From assembly GCA_014730235.1 (NCBI GenBank), contig WJIO01000377.1, forward strand, positions 1 to 13,154: a stretch of DNA of 13,154 bases, read 5' to 3'. The notes under the pieces were generated by a model. That model worked only from the letters and a program-made list of their open reading frames with translations. It was not told where the DNA came from and made no database searches. The position numbers and the translations under genes are program-made. Position 1 is the stretch's first letter, and each line of letters opens with the position of its first letter. Shown here in pieces: positions 269 through 13,066 of the stretch. The DNA is from Candidatus Poribacteria bacterium. Its GTDB lineage: Bacteria > Poribacteria > DTPJ01 > WJIO01.

Positions 269-610
269 TTATTCTCCCTCGAATTCCAGTATTTCCAATT
301 CTCTTCCAGATACAATTTCTATTTCAACACCCTCACACTCAGGGCAGTTATCCATCCAGTCATTTACCTGGAAAATATGACCACAGGCTTTGCATTTTGC
401 TTTTGTGGGAACTTTATTTATAATCAGTTCTGCACCTTCCAGAGGTGTATCCTGACTGAGGATTTTAAAGCCAAAACGCAGGGCTTCCGGCTCTACATGG
501 TGCATTTCTCCAGCCTGAAGGGTAATGGACTGGACTTTTTCTATACCATGCTTTTCCATTTCTGCCTTGATAATTTTGATTATGTTGTCAGCGAGGGATA
601 CTTCGTGCAT
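269..610 (-). CDS. hypA: HypA, hydrogenase nickel metallochaperone
   Basis: HypA hands nickel to the hydrogenase large subunit together with HypB. The protein has 113 residues, a normal length for the family. It begins MHEVSLADNI, carrying the invariant N-terminal Met-His-Glu that binds nickel. A structural zinc site is formed by two CxxC pairs, Cys73/Cys76 (CKACG) and Cys89/Cys92 (CPEC). The ATG at 610 is the only sensible start because the MHE motif must be at the N-terminus. The ribosome site is weak. The gene follows the maturation protease after 17 bases and is followed by hypB after 2 bases, so it is probably translated from the same message. Nothing looks damaged. Confidence 0.97.
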   Translation of the reverse strand: MHEVSLADNIIKIIKAEMEKHGIEKVQSITLQAGEMHHVEPEALRFGFKILSQDTPLEGAELIINKVPTKAKCKACGHIFQVNDWMDNCPECEGVEIEIVSGRELEILEFEGE

Positions 611-627
611 TATCTAAACCAGGAATA

Positions 628-1071
628 TTACTTTGATATTCCCGATAATTCCAGAATTTTTTTTACGGCAATATCAGCCCATTTTTGTGTTCGGGTGGAT
701 AAATCTGTTCCAAAATCAAAATCATAACCTTTTACTGATACTATATAAGCCTTCGGTGTTTTTTGGAATATATTTTGAGTTAAGGCGAGGAGTGAATCTG
801 GTTTGAGGTGATGGGTAAAGGCTGATTGGGTAAAGGTGGCTTCTAAAGAAGCCACCTTTAGATCTTCTTCTCTATGACCTACATAGGCATCAGCAAATAT
901 AACTATATCGTAATCTTTAATGGTCTCAGATTGTTCGATTCCAAGCTGATGACAGCATACGGTGTCTATGCTTTCGCCGGCTTGTCGCTCAACTTCCTGG
1001 ACGATGTAGTGACCTACACCGTCGTCCTGGCGATGGAAATTGCCGTAGCCAATAACGATAGTATGGGACAA
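628..1071 (-). CDS. hoxW: [NiFe] hydrogenase large-subunit maturation protease (HoxW type, peptidase M52)
   Basis: This endopeptidase removes the C-terminal tail of the hydrogenase large subunit after nickel has been inserted. The 147-residue protein opens with IGYGNFHRQDDGVG (residues 7-20), the M52 signature. Probable nickel-sensing residues are Asp16 or Asp17, Asp61 (in FADAY) and His87 or His88. The glycine after the ATP-grasp-like first strand and the later VKGYDFDFG stretch also fit HoxW-like proteases of soluble hydrogenases. The start is TTG at 1071: no ATG lies ahead of the signature, and AAAGGA stands 5 bases upstream, overlapping the end of the large-subunit gene. The gap to that gene is 2 bases, which suggests translational coupling of enzyme and processing protease. 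The family is certain; the subtype name rests on context with the Hox-like subunits. Confidence 0.9.
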   Translation of the reverse strand: MSHTIVIGYGNFHRQDDGVGHYIVQEVERQAGESIDTVCCHQLGIEQSETIKDYDIVIFADAYVGHREEDLKVASLEATFTQSAFTHHLKPDSLLALTQNIFQKTPKAYIVSVKGYDFDFGTDLSTRTQKWADIAVKKILELSGISK

Positions 1072-1073
1072 AG

Positions 1074-2507
1074 CTATTCCTTTGAGTCTCTGGTTATCTG
1101 ATCCAGCAGATTACCGTCTTTGTCATACATTTCCAGAATTATGGGCATTTTACCCAGGGCATGGGTAGAGCACGACAGACATGGATCATAAGCCCGGATG
1201 GCTACCTCAACCCGGTTCAGCATACCTTCGGTAAGGTTGTTTCCATCCACATACTGTTTGGCCACGTCGTCAACGGATTTGCTCATGGCCCAATTGTTAT
1301 GTCCTGTGGCGATTATAAGGTTGACTTTCAGGAGTTTACCACCTTCGTCGACTTTATAATGGTGCAACAGCGTTCCGCGAGGAGCTTCAACACATCCGAC
1401 TCCCTCGCTCTGTAGTTCGCCGCCGTAGGCCCTTATATCATTGGAGAGAATATCCGGGTCGTCCAGAAGTTCCTTTACTCGCTCCATAGCATAAAGGGTC
1501 TCGATAAGTCTTGCATAATGATACCACAGAGAGCCTTCTACAGGTTTGCCCTCATTAATAGCTTTGAAATTTTTGAACTCTTCGTTTGCCAGCGGTGTGC
1601 TTATCTTGTCCGCAACGTTCAGACGACCCAACGGGCCGACGCGGTATACACCATCTGGATAACCAAGTTTTTTATAGAATGGGAACTTGAGGTAAGACCA
1701 GTCTTCCACATGTTCGCCGATATATTCCAGATAGTCAGAAGGATCAAATAACTCCCATGGTTCACCTTCCGGGCCTATCAGTCTTATTTTTCCTTCGTAG
1801 AGTTCCAGTGCACCGTCTTCTTTTACCAGCCCCATGTATCCTGTGGGGAAGACAGCGAAGGTCTCTACGGTTTCCATATTGTCACGAACCCAGCGTTTGG
1901 CTATTTCTATTCCCTGCTGGATGAAAGCAATATGCTCATCCATATCTTTAAGAATTGTATCTCGCTCTTCTTCTGTGAGAACGTTATTTACTCCGCCGGC
2001 AACGGCAAAAACCGGATGGATTTTCTTACCACCCAATGTCTTTATAATTTCCTGTCCGAATTTGCGAAGCATTACTGCCTTAGTCGCCAGGGTTGGGTTT
2101 ACCTGAACTATACCTATAACATTACGAATTTTCGGATCTGCATCAAAACTAAACAATAAATCAGGACCAGCCAGATGGAAAAAGTGCATGGCATGGGACT
2201 GAATAGTTTGTCCCATGTGCATCAATTCTCTAAGCAGGGAGGCTGTGCGCGGTGGTTCAATTCCGCTTACAGCGTCACATGCTTTGGCAGAACCCAGATG
2301 ATGGCTGACCGGGCATATACCACATATACGGGGTGTTATCTGGGGCATTTCATAATACATTCTACCCTCAGAGAATTTTTCAAAACCGCGGAATTGGTCA
2401 ATGTGGAGGTATGCGTTTTCTACTTTTCCATCATCATCCACATGGATGGTCACACGAGCATGTCCTTCTATTCGTGTTACAGGTTCAATGGCTATTTTTT
2501 TACCCAT
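1074..2507 (-). CDS. hoxH: [NiFe] hydrogenase large (catalytic) subunit, HoxH-like, group 3
   Basis: This subunit holds the NiFe(CN)2CO site that splits or makes H2. It has 477 residues. The N-terminal motif RICGIC gives Cys62 and Cys65, and IEPVTRIEGH (7-16) precedes it. The C-terminal motif DPCLSCSTH gives Cys443 and Cys446, ending at His449. A 28-residue tail beginning ALGKMP follows and should be removed by the protease encoded immediately downstream. The motifs and the long shared stretches (PRICGICPVSHHLG, VRVGPLGRLNVA, VEAPRGTLLHHY, IRAYDPCLSC) resemble HoxH of NAD-linked soluble hydrogenases much more than membrane uptake enzymes. GGAGG lies 6 bases before the ATG. It follows the small-subunit gene after 15 bases. 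There is no signal for export, so the enzyme is cytoplasmic. Group 3 placement is strong; the exact subgroup (3d or the bifurcating HydL type) needs a tree. Confidence 0.96.
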   Translation of the reverse strand: MGKKIAIEPVTRIEGHARVTIHVDDDGKVENAYLHIDQFRGFEKFSEGRMYYEMPQITPRICGICPVSHHLGSAKACDAVSGIEPPRTASLLRELMHMGQTIQSHAMHFFHLAGPDLLFSFDADPKIRNVIGIVQVNPTLATKAVMLRKFGQEIIKTLGGKKIHPVFAVAGGVNNVLTEEERDTILKDMDEHIAFIQQGIEIAKRWVRDNMETVETFAVFPTGYMGLVKEDGALELYEGKIRLIGPEGEPWELFDPSDYLEYIGEHVEDWSYLKFPFYKKLGYPDGVYRVGPLGRLNVADKISTPLANEEFKNFKAINEGKPVEGSLWYHYARLIETLYAMERVKELLDDPDILSNDIRAYGGELQSEGVGCVEAPRGTLLHHYKVDEGGKLLKVNLIIATGHNNWAMSKSVDDVAKQYVDGNNLTEGMLNRVEVAIRAYDPCLSCSTHALGKMPIILEMYDKDGNLLDQITRDSKE

Positions 2508-2522
2508 GAAAAACCTCCAGTA

Positions 2523-3065
2523 TCAGTCATACTTTAAGTATTCACCACTTAAAGTTGGTATGCGTCCTTCCAGTAATTCTTTTAATACAAAATATATAGA
2601 TTCAGCCGATGGAGGACATCCGGGAAGATTAACATCCACTTTTACAACCTCATGAACAGGCATAGATTGAGGAAGTAGTCGGGCAATCTCTCTGGATTTG
2701 GGTATCTTTCCATCCACAGTGCTTTCGGTTTCTACATACCCGCGAGTAAGAACGTCATCAGGTGTCAGGTCGTTGCGCATGGTAGGAATACCATTCATGG
2801 CAGCACAGTCACCTATTGCTACCAGTATTTTACACCGTTCTCTCATACGTCTGGCTACTCTTCTCTGGTGTGTGTCAGATACGGCTCCGGTAAGAATGCC
2901 TACATCCACGCCTTCCTCAGGCGGTTCCTTGAGGTCGGTTATAGGAGAAGAGGTTATTTCTATTTTGCTCAAAAGCTCGATCAGATGTTCATCCATATCC
3001 AGGAGCGACATGTGGCATCCTGCACAGACATCCAGCCAATCGGTTGCTACAGTTACCTTAGGCAT
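2523..3065 (-). CDS. hoxY: [NiFe] hydrogenase small subunit, HoxY-like
   Basis: The small subunit passes electrons between the NiFe site and the diaphorase part. At 180 residues it is the short, soluble form. Cys14 and Cys17 (CAGC), Cys87 (GDCAAM) and Cys150 (PGCPPS) form the set expected for the single proximal [4Fe-4S] cluster. The medial and distal cluster domains and the twin-arginine signal of membrane hydrogenases are absent. TGA ends the gene 15 bases before the large subunit. The ATG at 3065 has AAGGAG about 9 bases upstream. The 81-base gap between this gene and the NuoG-like gene before it is larger than most gaps in the operon and holds only weak dyads. With one cluster, electrons must leave directly to the NuoG-like subunit, as in NAD-reducing enzymes. 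Confidence 0.95.
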   Translation of the reverse strand: MPKVTVATDWLDVCAGCHMSLLDMDEHLIELLSKIEITSSPITDLKEPPEEGVDVGILTGAVSDTHQRRVARRMRERCKILVAIGDCAAMNGIPTMRNDLTPDDVLTRGYVETESTVDGKIPKSREIARLLPQSMPVHEVVKVDVNLPGCPPSAESIYFVLKELLEGRIPTLSGEYLKYD

Positions 3066-3146: not shown

Positions 3147-4889
3147 TTAACCAATTTTTTCCGCCAGAGCGTTGAGAATATCCGCTTCTGCTTTAACCTC
3201 TTTGGGTGGGTCAACGGCTTTGTTTACTTTTAACTCCTGTCCTTCCATGTTTATAACTGTGCCTTCTCTTTCCGCCCATATAGTTGTTGGCAGAATAACG
3301 TCGGCAACTTCGTCCCAGGGTTCCATATAGCTTGTCTGAACAGCCACGAAATCAGCTTTTTTCAGCTTTGACAGAAGTTCCTCAGAGATGTCACCGGCTT
3401 CACAGGCCATTACATAGACGCAACTGGCTTTATCAGGGTCGAATTCTCCATCCAGACCAGCAGCCAGAGCGCCGCGGCTGTTGATACCAGGGGGCATCCA
3501 GAAAAATTTGGCATTGTCAGCAAGTTCTTCCCGCATTTTGTCTACCTGATTTATTGCTTCATCATTGTAAACAACAATGGGATTTTCTGCATCCTTACAA
3601 AGCTCGATAGCTTTGTCCAGTTCTGATATTTTCAGATGTTTATCGGCAAATTCAATCAGGCCGGTTTCTTCGTCGTTTACAATAACCAGCCTTTTATCCC
3701 TCTCGATTAAATTGCGCTTTATCAGAAAACCCACAACCTGATGCAGACCCTCCGAAAGGTCTTCGCCTACTACAACATACAAATCAGCGTCGTTCAGATC
3801 GGATAGGTCAAAGCCTTTCTCCGGCGGATCTGAGATGGGGCCTTCTATACAACCTACATTTTTTGCACCCATATCATCGGAATATTTGGCAAATAATTTC
3901 AGAGTTTCGGTAGTGGCATGGGTTGATACCAGTCCGCCTATTTTATCTTTATCGGTAAATTTAAGCTTTTCTGCAACAGCGTTCAGGGCTTCGTTCCAGG
4001 TTGCTTTCTGGAGTTGATCATCTTTTCGGATCATGGGTTTGTTGGCCCTGGCTCTACATTCATCATATAATGGGGAAAAACGACCAAGAACGCAAAGCAG
4101 ACCTTTATTTGGTTCAGCATCCCAGTCGCCTTCGATCCTGATAAGGTAGTTGTCACGACTGATTATTTCATTTCCGCATCCTACGCTGCAAAACAGACAT
4201 GTGCTTTTGGTGGTGTCTACTTCAGTTTTTCTTCCCATATATGCGCTGCGACGGTCAAGGATAGCTCCGGTGGGGCATACCTGAACGCATGTACCACAGC
4301 TAACACATCCGGATTCGCCTCGGTTTTCGCCCATATCGGATATAATCTGGGCTTTTGATCCTCTGTTGGATATACCAAGCACTTGGTTTCCGGCCATATC
4401 GTTACAAACCCTGACACATCGGTAACAAAGGATACAGCGATTTGGGTCGGCTACCAGGTATCTCTGGGAAGAATCAACATGCGTTGATTCCTCAGATGGC
4501 GTAACAGGCATTTTTATGTAATCAATTCCAAACCTGTAGGCCAGGTCCTGAAGTTCGCAGTCGCCACTGGCGGCACAGTACATACAATGGTGATTGCCCT
4601 CTGATAACAGGAATTCAAGGACATTTCTGCGCATCCCCCTGAGCTTTTCTGTATCAGTTTGTATTATCATTCCATCAGTTGCCGGAGTAGTGCAAGAGGT
4701 GCTTATACGAGGTCTTCCTGAGCCTTCAATTTCCACAATACATATCCTGCAGGAACCCATGTCCGGTATTCCATCAAAATGGCAGAGGGTAGGTACATCA
4801 ATGTCGTTTTTCTGACATACATTGAGTATGGTATCTCCATCCTCTCCTTTAACCTCTTTATCGTTTATGGTGAGTGTGATCTCAGCCAT
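3147..4889 (-). CDS. NuoG-like iron-sulfur subunit with shortened molybdopterin-oxidoreductase domain (HoxU/HydA-like)
   Basis: This is probably the electron wire between the hydrogenase pair and the flavin subunits. Its 580 residues carry, in order: a plant-ferredoxin [2Fe-2S] domain (Cys36, Cys47, Cys50, Cys66); a histidine-type [4Fe-4S] site (His100, Cys102, Cys105, Cys111); two [4Fe-4S] sites (Cys152/155/158/162 and Cys195/198/201/205); and a fifth site of the NuoG N7 or formate-dehydrogenase kind (Cys231/234/238 and Cys266). A molybdopterin-oxidoreductase-like domain (about 270-580) follows. It is much shorter than in formate dehydrogenase or full NuoG, shows no Cys/Sec active site, and has Leu268 where formate dehydrogenases usually have the lysine of CxKGRF. 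It is therefore probably structural. HoxU of classic NAD-linked hydrogenases is only about 230-240 residues, so this one is greatly extended. AAGGAGG lies 7 bases before the ATG. Confidence 0.9.
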   Translation of the reverse strand: MAEITLTINDKEVKGEDGDTILNVCQKNDIDVPTLCHFDGIPDMGSCRICIVEIEGSGRPRISTSCTTPATDGMIIQTDTEKLRGMRRNVLEFLLSEGNHHCMYCAASGDCELQDLAYRFGIDYIKMPVTPSEESTHVDSSQRYLVADPNRCILCYRCVRVCNDMAGNQVLGISNRGSKAQIISDMGENRGESGCVSCGTCVQVCPTGAILDRRSAYMGRKTEVDTTKSTCLFCSVGCGNEIISRDNYLIRIEGDWDAEPNKGLLCVLGRFSPLYDECRARANKPMIRKDDQLQKATWNEALNAVAEKLKFTDKDKIGGLVSTHATTETLKLFAKYSDDMGAKNVGCIEGPISDPPEKGFDLSDLNDADLYVVVGEDLSEGLHQVVGFLIKRNLIERDKRLVIVNDEETGLIEFADKHLKISELDKAIELCKDAENPIVVYNDEAINQVDKMREELADNAKFFWMPPGINSRGALAAGLDGEFDPDKASCVYVMACEAGDISEELLSKLKKADFVAVQTSYMEPWDEVADVILPTTIWAEREGTVINMEGQELKVNKAVDPPKEVKAEADILNALAEKIG

Positions 4890-4979: not shown

Positions 4980-7900
4980 TTAATCTGCCGGAACTTCGGC
5001 TTCCTCTTCTTCTTCCATATGTTCCAGAGCTTCTTTGGCATCTTCGGTCTGAAGATCACACCTTAAACAACGTCTGGCTTCAGTTACAGCCATTTTTTCA
5101 GTGTAACCCATTTCGACTTCCTTGAAGTTCTTCTGTCTGTCACATACCGGCAGATGTGGCATAGAAACTCTACCTTCCTGTTCTATTTCCTGTTCACTTA
5201 ATTCTACCGGAGGAACAAATATTGAAGGTCTGGATACGTTATAATCCCTGACCATCTTTTCACGTCGCAGGTATTTGTCGATCATCTCTGCGGCAATTTT
5301 ACCCGATGCCATAGCTTCTACAGCGTTGTTGGGTGCAGTTACAACATCACCACCGGCAAATATACCGTATACGTTGGTGGCATAAGTTTCTCGATCCACT
5401 TCTATAGTACCAATCTTCGATATGTTGATACCATGACCTTCACCCAGGAATTCCAGGGCGGCGGTTTCACCAATACCCAGAACCAATGTATCCAGTTCTA
5501 CAGTATACTCAGAATCAGGGACAGGTATTGGCCTTCTTCTGCCGCTGTCGTCCACTTCCCCTAACTCGGTCTTTATGAACTCTACAGCTTTAAGCTGACC
5601 ATTTTCCGCAATAATTCTCTTGGGTAATGTAAGAAGTTTGACATTGACACCCTCTTCAATGGCTGCGTCCAGTTCTTCTTCAAATCCCGGCATTTCGTGT
5701 CTTGTTCTTCTGTAAAATACAGTGACTTCTTCCACGCCTTCGAGCCTGTTGGCAACTCTGGATGAGTCTATGGCAGCGTTACCACCACCGATAACACCAA
5801 CTCTGGGGCCGACTTTAATTCCCATATGGAATTTCAAAGAACGCAGGAAGTCAATAGCATGGATTACACCTTCAGCATATTCATTTTTTATTGCCAGTCT
5901 GTTTTTCTTATGAGCGCCAGCAGCTATGAATGTAGCGGCGTAATCGGATATTACCTGGTCGAAAGGTATATCCTCGCCAATTCTGACGTTGGTTCTGATT
6001 TTAACGCCAGCCCGGCGAATATTGTCTATATCCCTTTCAAGAGCTTCTTTGGGAAGCCTGTAATCGGGTATATACATGGCCGGTGCACCACCTGCAATTG
6101 GCTCTGCTTCAAATACCGTAACATCATAACCTTTTTTGGCCAGGTAATAAGCAGCCGTTAATCCGGCAGGGCCTGAACCTATTACGGCCACAGGTTCTTT
6201 GTCAATTACCGGGGCTTCTTTTAGCTCATATCTGCTTGTTTGTTCGGCATAATCAGCCACGAATCGCTTAAGATGCCTGATAGCTATGGGATCACCCCAT
6301 TTGCCAGCCTGACATTTTGATTCGCATGGATAGTGGCATATTCTACCACAAAGAGAAGGTAGTGGGTTGTCCTTTCTGATGACTTCCCAGGCTTCGTTGT
6401 AGCGACCCCAGGAAATCAGAGATGTATATACCGCTGCCTCTGTGCCTATTGGGCATACATGACTGCAAGCCGACGATATGACTTCCTGACATATAACGGC
6501 AGGACATTTTTTGAGCTTAATATGGGCTTCATATTCGTCACGGAAGAAATCTATAGTGGATAAGATGGCATTGGGTGCTGTTTGGCCCAGAGCACACAGG
6601 GACGAATTTTTAACTGTATTGGCGATGTCCATGAGAAGCTCAATATCGCCCTCTTTGCCTTTACCCTTGGTGATACGGGTAAGGATTTCCAGCATCCGTT
6701 TTGTGCCCACACGACATGGAACGCATTTACCGCAGGATTCATCCTGTACAAATTCCATGAAGTAACGGGCTATTTCCACCATACAGGTATCTTCGTCCAT
6801 GACGATCATACCGCCTGAACCCATAATAGCACCTACACTGCTCAGGGATTCATAATCAACCGGCAGGTTGATGTACTGCAGGGGCACACAACCACCGGAA
6901 GGGCCCCCGATTTGAACGGCTTTAAATTCCTTGCCGTCCTGGATTCCTCCGCCGATCTCAAATATGATCTCTTTAAGGGTAGTTCCGTTGGGAACTTCGA
7001 TAAGACCGGTGTTGTTTACATCACCAGCCAGGGCGAACAGCTTTGTACCCTTGCTGTTTTTAGTTCCAATATCCGCATACCATTCAGCACCGTTGTTGAT
7101 GATATTGGCTATATTGGAGTAGGTTTCAACGTTGTTTATATTGGTTGGTTTTTCCCATAAACCTGAGTTTGCCGGGAAGGGGGGTCTTGGTCGGGGCATA
7201 CCCCTTTTACCTTCGATGGATGCCATTAATGCTGTTTCTTCACCGCATACAAAAGCTCCAGCGCCTTCCATAATATTTAGTTTGAAGTTGAAGCCGGTTC
7301 CCAGTATATTTTCGCCCAGAAGTCCCATATCTTCCATCTGTTTAACGGCTATTTTCAGGTGTTCCACCGCTATGGGATATTCGGCTCTGACGTATATGTA
7401 GCCTTCCTGCGCTCCAATAGCATAGGCAGCTATGCACATACCTTCCAGGGTTGTATGGGGGTCGCCTTCAAGAACGGCTCTGTCCATAAAAGCGCCAGGG
7501 TCGCCTTCGTCGGCGTTACATATAATATATTTTTCATCTCCTCTGGCACTTCTGGCGAACTGCCACTTCATGCCTGTGGAGAATCCTGCACCGCCGCGAC
7601 CACGCAGGCCGGAATTTTTAACTTCGTCAATTACCTCTTCCGGTGTCATGGTGGTCAGAGCTTTCACCAGGGCTTTATAACCATCCCGGGCTATATACTG
7701 GTTAACATCCTGGGGATCTATGTGACCACAGTTGCGAAGCACCAGCTTCATTTGTTTTTTGTAGAATGGAACTTCATCGGTTTTTGCGAATTTTTCGCCT
7801 GTTTCAGGGTCTTCGTATATTAGTTTTTCAATTACGTTGCCCTTCATCAGGGTTTCAGATACGATTTCAGGAACGTCATCAACAGATACTTCCTGGTAGA

Positions 7901-8153
7901 AATATCCATAGGGATCAATAGCCATTACAGGAGCTTTTGCGCAGAAACCGTGACATCCTGTGTCAACAATTTCTACCTTGTCCTGTATACCGGCTTTTTC
8001 GATCTCACTTACAAGAGCGTCCCTGATCTCCTCTGCGCCATAAGCACGACAGCCTGTCATACATATGCGCACCCGGATTTTGTCTGTATCCTGGGCTTCA
8101 ACCAATGATTTCCGCAAAGATTCCAGATCTTCAGGTGTTTTTAGCTTTTCCAT
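4980..8153 (-). CDS. Fused NuoF-like NADH/FMN subunit and GltD/NfnB-like FAD oxidoreductase (HoxF/HydB-GltD fusion)
   Basis: This is the pyridine-nucleotide-reactive subunit, with 1057 residues. Residues 1-110 form a thioredoxin-like [2Fe-2S] domain (Cys31, Cys35, Cys67, Cys71). Residues 135-545 form NuoF: the NADH/FMN site GLRGRGGAGFSTG (182-194), CNADEGDPGAF (212-222), GAFVCGEETAL (299-309), and a [4Fe-4S] site at Cys474/477/480 and Cys520. From about 549 a GltD/NfnB-like module begins: cysteines 550, 555, 563, 567 and 602, 606, 610, 614 for two probable [4Fe-4S] clusters; an FAD fold with VIGSGPAG (657-664) and IFAGGD (931-936); and an inserted NAD(P)H fold with VIGGGNAA (787-794). It closes with RRCLRC (1028-1032) and an acidic tail. 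The reading frame is unbroken, and AAGGAG lies 6 bases before the ATG, overlapping the nuoE stop. A second redox partner such as NADP(H) or ferredoxin is inferred, not shown. Confidence 0.93.
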   Translation of the reverse strand: MEKLKTPEDLESLRKSLVEAQDTDKIRVRICMTGCRAYGAEEIRDALVSEIEKAGIQDKVEIVDTGCHGFCAKAPVMAIDPYGYFYQEVSVDDVPEIVSETLMKGNVIEKLIYEDPETGEKFAKTDEVPFYKKQMKLVLRNCGHIDPQDVNQYIARDGYKALVKALTTMTPEEVIDEVKNSGLRGRGGAGFSTGMKWQFARSARGDEKYIICNADEGDPGAFMDRAVLEGDPHTTLEGMCIAAYAIGAQEGYIYVRAEYPIAVEHLKIAVKQMEDMGLLGENILGTGFNFKLNIMEGAGAFVCGEETALMASIEGKRGMPRPRPPFPANSGLWEKPTNINNVETYSNIANIINNGAEWYADIGTKNSKGTKLFALAGDVNNTGLIEVPNGTTLKEIIFEIGGGIQDGKEFKAVQIGGPSGGCVPLQYINLPVDYESLSSVGAIMGSGGMIVMDEDTCMVEIARYFMEFVQDESCGKCVPCRVGTKRMLEILTRITKGKGKEGDIELLMDIANTVKNSSLCALGQTAPNAILSTIDFFRDEYEAHIKLKKCPAVICQEVISSACSHVCPIGTEAAVYTSLISWGRYNEAWEVIRKDNPLPSLCGRICHYPCESKCQAGKWGDPIAIRHLKRFVADYAEQTSRYELKEAPVIDKEPVAVIGSGPAGLTAAYYLAKKGYDVTVFEAEPIAGGAPAMYIPDYRLPKEALERDIDNIRRAGVKIRTNVRIGEDIPFDQVISDYAATFIAAGAHKKNRLAIKNEYAEGVIHAIDFLRSLKFHMGIKVGPRVGVIGGGNAAIDSSRVANRLEGVEEVTVFYRRTRHEMPGFEEELDAAIEEGVNVKLLTLPKRIIAENGQLKAVEFIKTELGEVDDSGRRRPIPVPDSEYTVELDTLVLGIGETAALEFLGEGHGINISKIGTIEVDRETYATNVYGIFAGGDVVTAPNNAVEAMASGKIAAEMIDKYLRREKMVRDYNVSRPSIFVPPVELSEQEIEQEGRVSMPHLPVCDRQKNFKEVEMGYTEKMAVTEARRCLRCDLQTEDAKEALEHMEEEEEAEVPAD

Positions 8154-8163
8154 CAGGAGCTCC

Positions 8164-8667
8164 TTAACTCTCGTTTTTAATATTATTTTGATATTCTTTT
8201 AATATTTCTTCGGTTTTGTGTGGAGTAAGTTTACCATAGTATTTATCGTTTATCATCATAACCGGTGAAAGGAAACATGTACCAAGACAGGCCACTGTTT
8301 CCAGGGTAAAATTAAGATCAGGCGTGGTATCACCAGCTTTAATTTCCAGTGCCTTTTCCATGACTTCAAGAACATTCTTTGAGCCTCGGACATGGCAGGA
8401 AGTACCTGTGCATACCTTTATAACGTTCTTACCTCTGGGTTTCAAAGAGAACTGGGCGTAAAACGTGGCTACACCAAAAACCTGATTTTTGGGAATTCTG
8501 AGATGTTTGGCAATGCGTTCCATAAACTGTCCCGGCAGATAACCGTAAATTTCCTGAACATCCTGTAAAAATGGTATCAGCCGGCTGGCATCACCTGGTT
8601 CGTATTTGTCTAAAAGCTCTTCAAAATCAGCTACATCTACTTCTCTGAAGTCCAAAGCAACTCCCAT
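8164..8667 (-). CDS. NuoE-like [2Fe-2S] subunit (HoxE/HydC)
   Basis: This thioredoxin-fold [2Fe-2S] subunit partners NuoF-like proteins. The cluster ligands are two pairs, CTGTSC and CLGTC (Cys86, Cys91, Cys127 and Cys131 when counted from this start). The helical N-terminal part (RLIPFLQDVQEIYGYLP) and GVATFYAQF are typical. I chose the ATG at 8667, giving 167 residues, because CGGAGA lies 7 bases upstream. A TTG at 8697 would add 10 residues (MKSNEDRRFN) but has no ribosome site and would bury the GGAGA. This is the first gene of the hydrogenase operon. Its TAA overlaps the AAGGAG of the NuoF-GltD gene 10 bases downstream, so the two are probably made together. It could be called hoxE, hydC or nuoE; the function is the same electron relay. 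Confidence 0.94.
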   Translation of the reverse strand: MGVALDFREVDVADFEELLDKYEPGDASRLIPFLQDVQEIYGYLPGQFMERIAKHLRIPKNQVFGVATFYAQFSLKPRGKNVIKVCTGTSCHVRGSKNVLEVMEKALEIKAGDTTPDLNFTLETVACLGTCFLSPVMMINDKYYGKLTPHKTEEILKEYQNNIKNES

Positions 8668-8705
8668 ATTAAATCTCCGATCCTCGTTTGATTTCAATCA
8701 AGTTT

Positions 8706-9595: not shown

Positions 9596-10465
9596 ATGGG
9601 AACAAGTAACCCCTTACCTGCCGCCAGTTGTAAGTCACCATCAGCAATAGCAGAGAGTGTATCACAAACTATAGGAGTGGGAAAGTGTAATGCTTCTGCT
9701 TTCAACCTGATAATTCTCGGTATTCTGGCCGGAGTTTATATCGGATTTGGAAGTGCTCTGGCAACAACTGTAAGTCATGATGCCGCCAAGTTCGTAGGGC
9801 TTGGTATAGCCAAATTTATCACGGGTGCTGTATTTTCTGTGGGTCTGATGCTTGTCGTCATAGCCGGTGCTGAGTTGTTTACAGGTAACAACCTTATATT
9901 TGCCAGTGTTCTGGGTGGCCATTCAAGTCCCGGTAAACTATTAAGAAACTGGATAATAGTTTATATAGCAAACTTCGCTGGTTCATTACTGCTGGTAGGT
10001 ATAATGTATGGAACTGGTTTGTGGAAAGCCGGAAGCACCAGTATGGGTATTGGTGTAAAAGCCCTTGCTACTGCCAATAGCAAGGTAAATATTTCCTTTG
10101 GAGCAGCATTTTTCAGAGGAATTGGATGTAACTGGCTGGTTTGCCTGGCCGTGTGGTTGATGATATCAGCGAATGATACATCCGGAAAAATCTGGGCTGC
10201 TTTCTTTCCAATAATGGCCTTTGTTGCTACAGGTTTTGAGCACTGTATTGCCAATATGTATTTCATTCCCATGGGGTTATTCCTTAAAGGCACAGAAGTA
10301 GCAAAAATATCAGGGCTTAACCTGGCAAATCTTACGTGGGGCAATTTCTTCATAAAGAATCTTATTCCAGTCACAATCGGAAACATAATTGGCGGTTCGC
10401 TATTTGTCGCTCTGTTATACTGGAGTGTATATCAACGAAATGACAAAAATAAGGCTGATGCCTAG
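9596..10465 (+). CDS. Formate/nitrite transporter family channel (FocA/FdhC-like), probably formate
   Basis: FNT proteins form pentameric inner-membrane channels with six membrane helices per protomer, moving formate, nitrite or hydrosulfide. The protein has 289 residues. Family marks are AGVYIGFGSAL (45-55), AGAELFTGN (90-98), GCNWLVCLAVW (177-187) and FEHCIANMYFIP (214-225). His216 is the conserved pore histidine. NLIPVTIGNIIGG (255-267) is the last conserved block. Hydrophobic segments fit six helices. The start ATG has AAGGAG 9 bases upstream. The remnants of a formate dehydrogenase gene directly downstream, on the same strand, and mobA after them favour formate as the substrate over nitrite. 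There is no hydrogenase gene on this strand. Family confidence is very high; the substrate is inferred. Confidence 0.93.
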   Translation: MGTSNPLPAASCKSPSAIAESVSQTIGVGKCNASAFNLIILGILAGVYIGFGSALATTVSHDAAKFVGLGIAKFITGAVFSVGLMLVVIAGAELFTGNNLIFASVLGGHSSPGKLLRNWIIVYIANFAGSLLLVGIMYGTGLWKAGSTSMGIGVKALATANSKVNISFGAAFFRGIGCNWLVCLAVWLMISANDTSGKIWAAFFPIMAFVATGFEHCIANMYFIPMGLFLKGTEVAKISGLNLANLTWGNFFIKNLIPVTIGNIIGGSLFVALLYWSVYQRNDKNKADA

Positions 10466-10579: not shown

Positions 10580-10688
10580 ACCGGAGTCAACCCCTCTGCG
10601 TGGATAGAGCAACGTTCAGGGAACATGTGCCATGGGCGATTTACCGAAAGTCTACCCGGGTTGCCAGGGTGTAGTTAAAGATGAGATA
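10580..10688 (+). pseudogene. Remnant of a formate dehydrogenase catalytic subunit (internal fragment, frameshift and stop)
   Basis: The piece begins TGVNP in the frame of the NuoE remnant. After one extra base near 10595 it continues as LRG-stop-SNVQGTCAMGDLPKVYPGC and QGVVKDE. This is the well-known formate dehydrogenase stretch of the form [28 protein letters not shown], found in the molybdopterin domain of FdhF/FdhA. The in-frame TAG at 10605-10607 sits where a CAG glutamine codon is normal. So the fragment carries at least one frameshift and one nonsense change. It has neither the N-terminal clusters nor the Sec/Cys site, and resemblance ends about 25 bases before the hairpin repeat at 10714. 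It is a dead internal fragment. Confidence 0.82.
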
Positions 10689-10713
10689 TCGTTAAAAAAT
10701 GGATATAATTTAG

Positions 10714-10743
10714 TTGTCATTCCTGCGAAAGCAGGAATGACAA
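10714..10743. repeat. Perfect hairpin of the CATTCCTGCGAA family with GAAA loop
   Basis: Thirteen-base arms (10714-10726 and 10731-10743) pair perfectly around gaaa. The left arm reads ttgtcattcctgc. It is the short form of the element at 9147-9216, sharing its outer bases. It follows the formate dehydrogenase remnant and precedes mobA. Confidence 0.88.
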
Positions 10744-10788
10744 GCAAAGTAGATTTTTCTTGTGTAATTGTGCTTCTTCTTCATTACA

Positions 10789-10803
10789 ACACTAAACCCG
10801 GAA
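10789..10803. repeat. Direct repeat copy 2 (15 bases), partner at 9245-9259
   Basis: This is the second exact copy of acactaaacccggaa, in the same orientation as the first and again just downstream of a CATTCCTGCGAA hairpin. The following tttaacag is also shared, about 12 bases on. The start of mobA lies 38 bases further. Confidence 0.75.
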
Positions 10804-10841
10804 GAACTTCATTTTTTAACAGTTACTATAGAAATAAAAAT

Positions 10842-11447
10842 ATGTCAGATATTACGGGTATAATCCTGGCAGGTGGTCGGGGTAAGCGATTAGGATATAG
10901 AAATAAAGCCCTTCTGGAAATAGGCGGAAAACAGATAATACAACGCATTATAGAAACCCTGTCAGAAGTGACAGACCGGATAATGATAATGACAAATTTT
11001 CCAGAGGACTTCACCCATCTTGAATTTCCCACCTTTAGCGATATAATCCCAAATTCAGGCCCATTGGGAGGGATTTATACAGGATTAAAAATAACCAAAA
11101 CCCAATATAATATAATCCTGGCCTGCGACATGCCCTTCATCCAACCATTTATACTTAACAAAATTATAGATAATATAGAGGATTATGATATAATAGTTCC
11201 TGTCACTCCCGACGGCTATCATCCAACCACAGCCATCTACTCCAAAAACTGCCTTGATACAATAGAAAAGCAGATACAATCAGGCCATCTGAAAATATCC
11301 TCCATATTTTCACAACTGAAAGTAAAGGCCATTGAATTTGCAAAAATTCACGACGATAATAACCTTCTGGTCTTCTTTAATGTCAATACCCATAAAGATT
11401 ACATGAAAGCTGTTGATATGGTGGAAAAAGATAATTTAGTTTTTTAA
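10842..11447 (+). CDS. mobA: MobA, molybdenum cofactor guanylyltransferase
   Basis: MobA transfers GMP from GTP to molybdopterin cofactor, giving the (bis-)MGD form used by formate dehydrogenases and other DMSO-reductase-family enzymes. The protein has 201 residues, normal for MobA. Motifs: the nucleotide loop LAGGRGKRLG (9-18) followed by Lys22; SGPLGGIYTGL (72-82), whose GPLGGI is typical of MobA; the metal-binding Asp96 in ACDMPFI; and FNVNT (179-183) near the end. I place the start at ATG 10842 because MSDITGIILAGG is the family N-terminus. An open frame extends upstream to 10632, but that part is the formate dehydrogenase remnant and the hairpin repeat. The ribosome site is weak (gaaataaaaat). 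It faces the same way as the transporter. Without a visible molybdoenzyme here, its client lies elsewhere or was the decayed gene upstream. Confidence 0.93.
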   Translation: MSDITGIILAGGRGKRLGYRNKALLEIGGKQIIQRIIETLSEVTDRIMIMTNFPEDFTHLEFPTFSDIIPNSGPLGGIYTGLKITKTQYNIILACDMPFIQPFILNKIIDNIEDYDIIVPVTPDGYHPTTAIYSKNCLDTIEKQIQSGHLKISSIFSQLKVKAIEFAKIHDDNNLLVFFNVNTHKDYMKAVDMVEKDNLVF

Positions 11448-11718: not shown

Positions 11719-12072
11719 TTATTCTACAAGCTCAATAACCGACATGGGAGCACCATCACCAAATCGGTATCCGAGTTTTATAATACGAGTATAACCGCCG
11801 TTTCTTTCGTTATAACGGGGGGCTATATCGTCAAATAGCTTTTTAAGAACATCTTTATCCCGGACAGTGACAGCCGCCTGCCTGCGAGCATGTAAATCTC
11901 CTCGCTTGGCTAACGTTATAAGCTTTTCTGCTGTCCGTCTTAACTCCTTGCTTTTAGGCAAGGTGGTTTCAATCTTTTCATGTTCGAAGAGAGAAGTAAC
12001 CATATTTGAGAGCATAGCTTTTCGGTGCGCGCTTGTCCGTCCCAGTTTCCTCCCTTTTCGCTTATGACGCAT
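11719..12072 (-). CDS. rplQ: 50S ribosomal protein L17
   Basis: L17 is a structural protein of the large ribosomal subunit. At 117 residues it has the usual length for a bacterial L17 without extension. The sequence starts [20 protein letters not shown], the classic L17 signature, and continues [18 protein letters not shown] and [20 protein letters not shown]. The ATG at 12072 lies inside the end of rpoA, so the two genes overlap by 11 bases. AGGAGG is provided by the acidic codons of rpoA, about 9 bases upstream. This is the last gene of its operon and is followed by a strong terminator. Confidence 0.98.
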
Positions 12073-13066
12073 CTTCAGGTTCCTCCTCTTCTTTCTCTAT
12101 TTCGTTGCCTTCTTCATCCAGTAACATTCCGAAGCGAAGTCCCATATCAGCCAGAATTTCTTTAATTTCATTCAATGACTTACGTCCAAAGTTCCTGAAT
12201 TTCAGCATTTCCGATTCTGTTTTTGTTACTAAATCCCTGATGGTAACGATTTCGGCGGCTTCAAGACAATTGGCAGAACGAACGGAAAGCTCAAGCTCTG
12301 CAACAGGTCTTGCTAGATACATCTTACGCTTTTCCGCTTCTTCGTCAATTTCTTCTTCTTCCTCAATATAATTCTCATCAAAATCAGTAAATATTGCGAG
12401 ATAATCAGATAAAATATTAGCTGCTTCTGCCACAGCATCTTTAGCCGTCATGCTTCCATCAGTCCAGACCTCTATAGAAAGTCTATCATAATCAATCATC
12501 TCTTCCCGTCGGTCTTCAACTCTAAATGTAGCTTTTTTTACGGGAGAAAAAGAAGCGTCAATGGGCATTAATCCGGGTTGTAAATTACCTTCCATTATAA
12601 GTTCCGCCGGAACATAACCCCTGCCGCTATCAACATATATTTCCATCTTCAGTTCGCCATTCTTATCCAGCGTAGCAATATGCTGATCGGGGTTCATTAC
12701 TTCCACCCTGTTATTGGGTTGAATATCAGCAGCAGTAACTTCGCTCATTCCCTTAACATCAAGATTAAGCGTCACCGGTCCGTCATCCAGAAGTCTGAAA
12801 CGAACCTCTTTGAGGTTAAGGACTATCTGGGTAACATCTTCAACTACACCTGGAATGGTAGAAAATTCATGAAGAACTCCATCTATCTTAGCTCCTGTTA
12901 CCGCAGCTCCCTTCAGGGAAGACAACAATACCCTTCGGAGCGAATTACCAAGAGTAATTCCAAAGCCTTTTGATAGCGGTTCTGCAATAAATTTTCCATA
13001 ATTATATGTTAGAGCATCAGGATCAGCCGACAGTCTTTTGGGCATCTTGAGCTCTTTCAAATGCAT
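12062..13066 (-). CDS. rpoA: RNA polymerase alpha subunit
   Basis: Alpha dimerises to nucleate RNA polymerase assembly and contacts promoter UP elements and activators. The 334 residues show the N-terminal domain with [20 protein letters not shown] (34-53), an acidic linker ([18 protein letters not shown], 231-248) and the C-terminal domain with [10 protein letters not shown] (259-268), whose arginine matches the DNA-contacting R265 of Escherichia coli, then [12 protein letters not shown] (290-301). The ending is unusually acidic ([11 protein letters not shown]). The ATG at 13066 has GGAGG 9 bases upstream; a second ATG seven codons in (MPKRLS) is a possible alternative. It sits between rpsD and rplQ in the standard bacterial order. 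Confidence 0.98.

Follow-up and report, generated by a model that had tools for sequence, protein, structure and literature searches.

How might a hydrogenase of the electron-bifurcating type work when the domain proposed to serve ferredoxin has been exchanged for a second flavoprotein? This question is raised by a 13,154-nucleotide contig (WJIO01000377.1; the whole stretch is called the window hereafter) from the 5.53 Mb draft genome of a Candidatus Poribacteria bacterium. The window carries a compact minus-strand string of hydrogenase genes, with intergenic gaps of 2 to 90 bases, in which the subunit HydB forms one chain with a GltD/NfnB-type flavoprotein. To our knowledge, all Bfu/HydABC enzymes are considered to use ferredoxin as their low-potential partner. 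The sequence evidence leads us to favor, with moderate confidence, a bifurcating [NiFe]-hydrogenase that would deliver electrons of H2 to nicotinamide adenine dinucleotide (NAD+) at flavin mononucleotide (FMN) and to its phosphate (NADP+) at flavin adenine dinucleotide (FAD), with no ferredoxin.

A GltD flavoprotein at the ferredoxin site of HydB

The fusion protein of 1057 amino acids (4980..8153, minus strand, as for all operon coordinates below) was found to be encoded as the original prediction had claimed, in a single unbroken NuoF-GltD frame, with 1057 codons open from 8153 to 4980 and the stop codon inside this range. A complete HydB/BfuB core (residues 1-555) is followed by a complete GltD/NfnB-type flavoprotein (residues 556-1037). 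The predicted full NuoF, FAD fold, and NAD(P)H fold were recovered in order by a Pfam domain search, with every match over its curated cut-off. The HydB core comprises an N-terminal thioredoxin-like [2Fe-2S] domain (PF01257, residues 20-100, 7854..8096; B5 ligands C31, C35, C67, and C71), the FMN/NAD(H) domain with a bifurcation-type E216-x-D218 (PF01512, E 4.5e-45, residues 178-349, 7107..7622), an SLBB domain (residues 374-421), an NADH_4Fe-4S domain (residues 460-544), and, by alignment to 7t2r_B, a four-helix region with the ligands of the B1 [4Fe-4S] cluster (C474, C477, C480, and C520) and the B2 [2Fe-2S] cluster (6489..6785). The N-terminal domain had been read as NuoE-type; it is present, but as the normal HydB/BfuB N-terminus, and the NuoE homologue is HydC, encoded separately at 8697-8164. 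At the ferredoxin domain's place stands the GltD N-terminal dicluster domain (DPD-II/Fer4_20, PF14691, residues 555-639, 6237..6491; ligands C563, C567, C602, C606, C610, C614, and K629), followed by the GltD FAD and inserted NADP(H) Rossmann folds (Pyr_redox_2, PF07992, residues 655-951, 5268..6191; motifs G659xG661xxG664, GGG789-791, D796, R799, and RR815-816). An AlphaFold2 model built from 40 aligned fusions (predicted local distance difference test 89.5, predicted template modeling score 0.82) was compared with known structures by VIA-align; its first half matched HydB chains (9mqx_B, Z 55; Thermotoga maritima HydB, Z 52) and its second half matched chains of the StnC type in their GltD region (9bov_A, Z 50; 8oh5_C, Z 49). 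At the junction, HydB homology ends at residue 560 and GltD homology starts at 562; C555, which closes the B2 ligand set, and C563, which opens that of the GltD clusters, lie eight residues apart. Thus, GltD occupies exactly HydB's usual site for the ferredoxin-binding 2x[4Fe-4S] domain, and the contrast that had been drawn with HydB's ferredoxin-like tail was right. A chance or assembly chimera was ruled out by recurrence, as the same junction was found in at least about 50 other genomes, including that of the isolate Moorella thermoacetica DSM 21394, whose fusion (L068) is of the [FeFe] form.

The core itself was found to be of the bifurcating type. HydA, HydB (residues 27-560), and HydL all had their best Protein Data Bank sequence match in the Acetomicrobium mobile structure 7t2r (E values of 1.5e-100 to 7t2r_A, 1.9e-240, and 6.2e-187 to 7t2r_D, respectively). 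The B2 ligands of A. mobile, C438, C476, H525, C531, and C536 (PMC8880783), correspond in the alignment to 7t2r_B to C457, T495, H544, C550, and C555 of the window protein; Thr is usual at the second position, and the His ligand is reported absent in non-bifurcating homologues (PMC9304861). No exchange of C457, H544, C550, or C555 was seen in any of the 56 fusions or the 29 ferredoxin-tailed HydBs, while the B2 ligands were missing from almost every one of 30 NuoF-like proteins used for comparison; among the few that had them were HydB-like members of that set. Similarly, the D218 position, which aligned to StnB D186 and Nqo1 Glu97 (residues from PMC10482914), was occupied by Asp in all 54 fusions covering it and all 29 ferredoxin-tailed HydBs, and by Glu in 26 of 30 NuoF-like proteins and six of seven short HydBs. 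The earlier assignment to HoxF was therefore rejected in favor of a bifurcating-type HydB, based on the B2 ligands, D218, and the best structural matches to bifurcating HydB chains; group 3d HoxF is marked by the lack of both B2 ligands and a C-terminal module, and here the B2 ligands and GltD are both present. What is gone is the C-terminal domain that in bifurcating HydB holds B3 and B4, where ferredoxin is proposed to bind (PMC8880783). The corresponding dicluster motif was present in all 29 tailed HydBs of the set and in none of the 56 fusions; as the tailed class is defined by this motif, it is the zero among fusions that is informative. Thus, of the features of the Bfu family, the FMN domain, B1, B2 (including His), B5, and C1 were all found, and the C-terminal B3/B4 2x[4Fe-4S] ferredoxin-type domain (IPR017896) was not. 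Because of this missing domain the enzyme is not filed as a strict NiFe-Bfu member; most likely it functions as such an enzyme does, through a different exit.

The type of the module was apparent from its order and ligands. The start of NfnB aligned to the C-terminal segment of the module up to C1029-x2-C1032, and the following part of NfnB to the rest of the module; compared with free NfnB, the window GltD is a circular permutation, its segments arranged as in StnC's GltD region. The C-terminal R-C1029-L-R-C1032 pair (5058..5072) is the homologue of NfnB's N-terminal RCLxC, and both cysteines were invariant in 40 of 40 aligned fusions. Two extra four-cysteine groups had been predicted and were present, but one of them is probably completed by this distant pair, because the module is permuted. 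K629 corresponds to StnC K170, which ligates the FAD-proximal cluster where NfnB has Glu (PMC10482914), and Lys was found at this position in 39 of 40 fusions. The permuted cysteine pair and the Lys at the proximal cluster are those of a StnC-type GltD; of the marks of NfnAB, a Glu-ligated proximal cluster and an NfnA partner, neither was observed, and in the operon Pfam revealed neither a homologue of NfnA nor any different second acceptor chain. R699, equivalent to StnC R239 and NfnB R201, was invariant in the aligned fusions. The loss of FAD-binding residues that would have spoken against the predicted function was not seen; the 40 aligned fusions conserve the cysteines of the clusters, the two glycine motifs, and the D and R that bind the nucleotide, and the alignment showed the GGGNxAxD...RR motif of NADPH-binding GltD with the family arginines conserved. 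The FAD of StnC was found to be non-bifurcating (PMC10482914), and from the likeness to StnC at K629 and R699 we expect the GltD FAD to be likewise an electron-transfer flavin, not a bifurcating one.

Recurrence and history of the fusion

A census of NuoF-GltD fusions and their neighbors, executed by a scan of species genomes and a phylum search, collected at least 56 fusions with several types of partner; all fusion counts are lower bounds. Records came from Latescibacterota, Pirellulales, Spirochaetota, Gemmatimonadales, Chloroflexi, Firmicutes, Atribacteria, Deltaproteobacteria, Proteobacteria, Aminicenantes, and others. The partner was an [FeFe] HydA in 16 cases, a formate dehydrogenase A subunit in 15, and [NiFe] HydSL in three; the remaining 22 of 56 had no assigned partner, many lying at contig edges. 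The three [NiFe] cases were (i) the window, (ii) G016 (locus L039), and (iii) a Desulfobacterales locus (L089), the last of which also matched the formate dehydrogenase query via its NuoG-like HydA.

On the HydB-core tree the fusion label required 10 changes, at least seven of which were forced by well-supported branches, and a single origin in one fusion clade was rejected by the approximately unbiased test on the HydB core (p-AU 9e-104). By these two results, GltD and the ferredoxin tail act as alternative occupants of a single site, and the trees indicate that the C-terminal module of HydB was swapped repeatedly. The fused GltD modules formed nearly one clade in the GltD tree; with a single fusion origin rejected, the GltD module itself seems to have spread. 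For the window, the HydB core was sister (100/90) to a ferredoxin-tailed HydB of the same order (L037), with 73% identity over residues 1-555, while its GltD was sister (99/93) to that of L036, another fusion in the genome that holds L037. With different sisters for its two parts, the window gene appears to have arisen by recombination between a canonical HydB and a pre-existing GltD tail. Gene order is identical in the three [NiFe] fusions, yet their HydB cores formed no clade and a common origin was rejected for the core, which places the [NiFe] partners, by phylogeny, in three separate lineages. Identity between the window and L039 was uneven, at 70% for HydL, 58% for the HydB core, and 40% for GltD.

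Several other arrangements were observed around these genes. At L055:6561-13543, L057:6561-13571, and L059:1704-8717, and also at L061 and L063, a GltD-fused HydB and an [FeFe] HydA are joined by an additional HydB without a tail and an additional HydC; of the seven short HydBs, six have Glu, the non-bifurcating residue, in place of D218, and clusters of the L055 type would encode a two-diaphorase hydrogenase. An Aminicenantes operon (L077:5999-15136), near a glutamate-synthase-like gene, encodes two HydBs, one fused to GltD and one with a ferredoxin tail, as well as two HydCs and two short proteins resembling HydA. At L040:6150-10369, the window's own genome has a HydC-HydB single chain of 802 amino acids with a ferredoxin tail, which adjoins a 545-amino-acid protein with a NuoG-like start, a GltD dicluster, and an FAD fold, apparently without an NADP domain; L045 is arranged alike. 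At L069:9586-12333, L079:9667-12354, and L126:8378-11065, the formate dehydrogenase A subunit is split into two frames at residue ~352, probably by a selenocysteine TGA. Finally, A subunits of ~1100 amino acids adjoin the fusion at L056:7296-10652 and L058:12632-15883; these have a [2Fe-2S] NuoG-like start, Pyr_redox_2, and C-terminal ferredoxin clusters, and are a possible partner, perhaps HdrA-like.

Operon and proposed electron path

The operon reads HydC-HydB::GltD-HydA-HydS-HydL-protease-hypA-hypB, all on the minus strand. The NuoE-like HydC/BfuC (8164..8697, with a possible ATG start at 8664; PF01257, E 6.8e-55 on 8664-8164) has the C1 [2Fe-2S] ligands C96, C101, C137, and C141. The NuoG-like HydA/BfuA of 580 amino acids (3147..4889; PF13510, PF10588, PF22117, PF04879, and PF00384) has ligands for clusters A1-A5, of which the cysteines C152-C205 and C231-C266 are those expected for A3 and A5 of NiFe-Bfu (Type 3); its C-terminal part is molybdopterin-oxidoreductase-like, and Pfam matched neither an H-cluster domain nor a GltD domain in it, GltD being on HydB. 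The predicted [NiFe] partner was borne out by the small subunit HydS of 180 amino acids (2523..3065; PF01058, E 3.7e-28) and the large subunit HydL (1074..2507), which keeps both nickel motifs intact (RICGIC and DPCLSCSTH), has a C-terminal extension, and was the sole [NiFe] large subunit found in its own genome. These genes are followed by a hydrogenase maturation protease (628..1071; TIGR00072, 63 bits, over cut-off), the nickel chaperone HypA (269..610; PF01155, E 1.9e-34), and HypB, cut by the contig end (3..266; TIGR00073, E 5e-27). Rfam gave no match in the window, and no CdhC-type acetyl-CoA synthase, which would indicate a Wood-Ljungdahl context, was found in the genome. Divergent from the operon, the plus strand encodes a formate/nitrite transporter and MobA (9596-10465 and 10632-11447), which hint at formate metabolism, and beyond them rplQ and rpoA (11719-13066).

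In the electron path that we infer, together with complex formation, coupling, and nucleotide specificity, a soluble [NiFe]-hydrogenase would be set on a bifurcating BfuBC core whose HydB offers an NADP(H) port instead of the one for ferredoxin. Electrons from H2 would travel from NiFe through HydS, HydA, and B1 to FMN; FMN would give hydride to NAD+ as the higher-potential branch; and single electrons of the lower-potential branch would pass via C1/B2, which would otherwise feed B3/B4 and ferredoxin, to the two GltD clusters and on to NADP+ through FAD, acting as an electron-transfer flavin like that of StnC. The net reaction, 2 H2 + NAD+ + NADP+ = NADH + NADPH + 2 H+, would be reversible, and in reverse NADPH would assist NADH in H2 production. 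The in-vivo potentials are -280 mV for NAD and -380 mV for NADP (PMC9304861 Table 1), and H2 at 10-1000 Pa was calculated to fall between them (-296 to -355 mV), as bifurcation requires. With published in-vivo potentials, the H2 balance pressure was ~3 Pa for NADH alone, ~145 Pa for NADH with NADPH, and ~15 kPa for NADH with ferredoxin. The predicted linkage of H2, NAD(H), NADP(H), and possibly ferredoxin in one complex is partly supported: linkage of the first three is probable, and ferredoxin is a less likely partner, because the domain that binds it is the part replaced.

Four points weigh against bifurcation to NAD+ and NADP+: (i) our literature search found no biochemistry on any fused enzyme; (ii) B3/B4 are held necessary for bifurcation in published work (PMC11406978); (iii) five of the seven short tail-less HydBs also retain the B2 ligands, so these ligands do not prove bifurcation; and (iv) by analogy with NfnB, the distal GltD cluster could serve ferredoxin itself. 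The missing domain would also fit a non-bifurcating two-port hydrogenase in which H2, NAD(H), and NADP(H) equilibrate over one cluster wire, that is, a hydrogenase with an uncoupled transhydrogenase. Syntrophomonas wolfei HydB, without B3/B4, does not bifurcate, sub-type II HydBs without B3/B4 are taken as non-bifurcating (PMC11406978), and the standard potentials of NAD and NADP are equal; however, the B2 ligands and D218 are kept in every fusion covering them, and an uncoupled short circuit between NADH and NADPH would waste the ~100 mV difference that cells maintain. We consider this arrangement unlikely. Somewhat less likely still is a four-way enzyme whose distal GltD [4Fe-4S] cluster also docks ferredoxin: NfnAB reduces ferredoxin through the NfnB clusters (PMC7483475), and the window GltD has the same type of two-cluster domain, but the dedicated ferredoxin domain is gone from all fusions and in Stn ferredoxin was assigned to the StnB C-terminal domain, not to GltD (PMC10482914). 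A further reading, proposed for the [FeFe] BfuABC of sub-type I (PMC11406978) and in line with the invariant R699, makes the GltD FAD a second, classical bifurcating center in addition to FMN; it is highly improbable given the StnC-like Lys in place of the NfnB Glu, a StnC FAD that is non-bifurcating despite the same Arg (PMC10482914), and the lack of a second acceptor chain in the operon.

Beyond the window, a broader and more tentative proposal, to which we give somewhat less than even weight, is that the BfuB C-terminal socket is an exchangeable exit port in a widespread ferredoxin-independent Bfu class that would bifurcate electrons from H2 ([NiFe] or [FeFe]) or formate to NAD+ and NADP+. 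If true, H2 or formate would be linked directly to the two nicotinamide pools of anaerobes, which could then draw NADPH for biosynthetic use or release H2 with the help of NADPH up to ~145 Pa. A natural, repeatedly evolved swap of exactly the ferredoxin-binding domain, with the core intact, also offers a test of the roles of B2, C1, and the tail in bifurcation. For annotation, HydABC genes alone do not imply ferredoxin coupling.

Relation to known systems

The [FeFe] form of the fusion was already described in 2024 (PMC11406978). In the main texts of open-licence literature, we found no published [NiFe] or formate dehydrogenase form and no report of the permuted, StnC-type nature of the module; nor was any proposal found there of NADP+ replacing ferredoxin or of an NAD+/NADP+ bifurcating hydrogenase. 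In the described sub-type I BfuABC of Hydrogenedentota and relatives (Zheng and Huang 2024, PMC11406978), B3/B4 are likewise replaced by DPD_II and an FAD/NAD(P) domain, but the partner is a group A3 [FeFe]-hydrogenase BfuA rather than [NiFe]; a second bifurcating FAD was suggested, and NADP(H) was not named as acceptor. StnABC/Nfn-Bfu enzymes (Sporomusa ovata 8oh5, Caldicellulosiruptor 9bov, and Thermococcus sibiricus 9n5u) share the HydBC-like core and a permuted GltD with the Lys ligand. They have no hydrogenase, and their HydB keeps the ferredoxin domain; the HydB-NfnB combination that the original prediction gave for Stn was mistaken, as GltD is there inserted in the NuoG-like StnC as third-substrate input (PMC10482914). 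NfnAB shares the GltD/NfnB fold, FAD, and NADP(H) site with the window module, but is a free two-subunit enzyme with a Glu ligand, an unpermuted N-terminal RCLxC, and bifurcation at FAD, whereas the window module has Lys and is permuted. HoxEFUYH, the group 3d NAD-reducing hydrogenase, resembles the window in its NuoEF-like diaphorase and [NiFe] pair; however, HoxF is non-bifurcating, with neither B2 nor a C-terminal module, and the window HydB has both. The NiFe-HydABCSL of A. mobile (NiFe-Bfu, Type 3 Bfu; 7t2r/7t30) has the same five subunits and the B1, B2, B5, C1, and A1-A5 ligands in common with the window; its HydA is longer (692 versus 580 amino acids), and it has a C-terminal ferredoxin domain with B3/B4 where the window has GltD.

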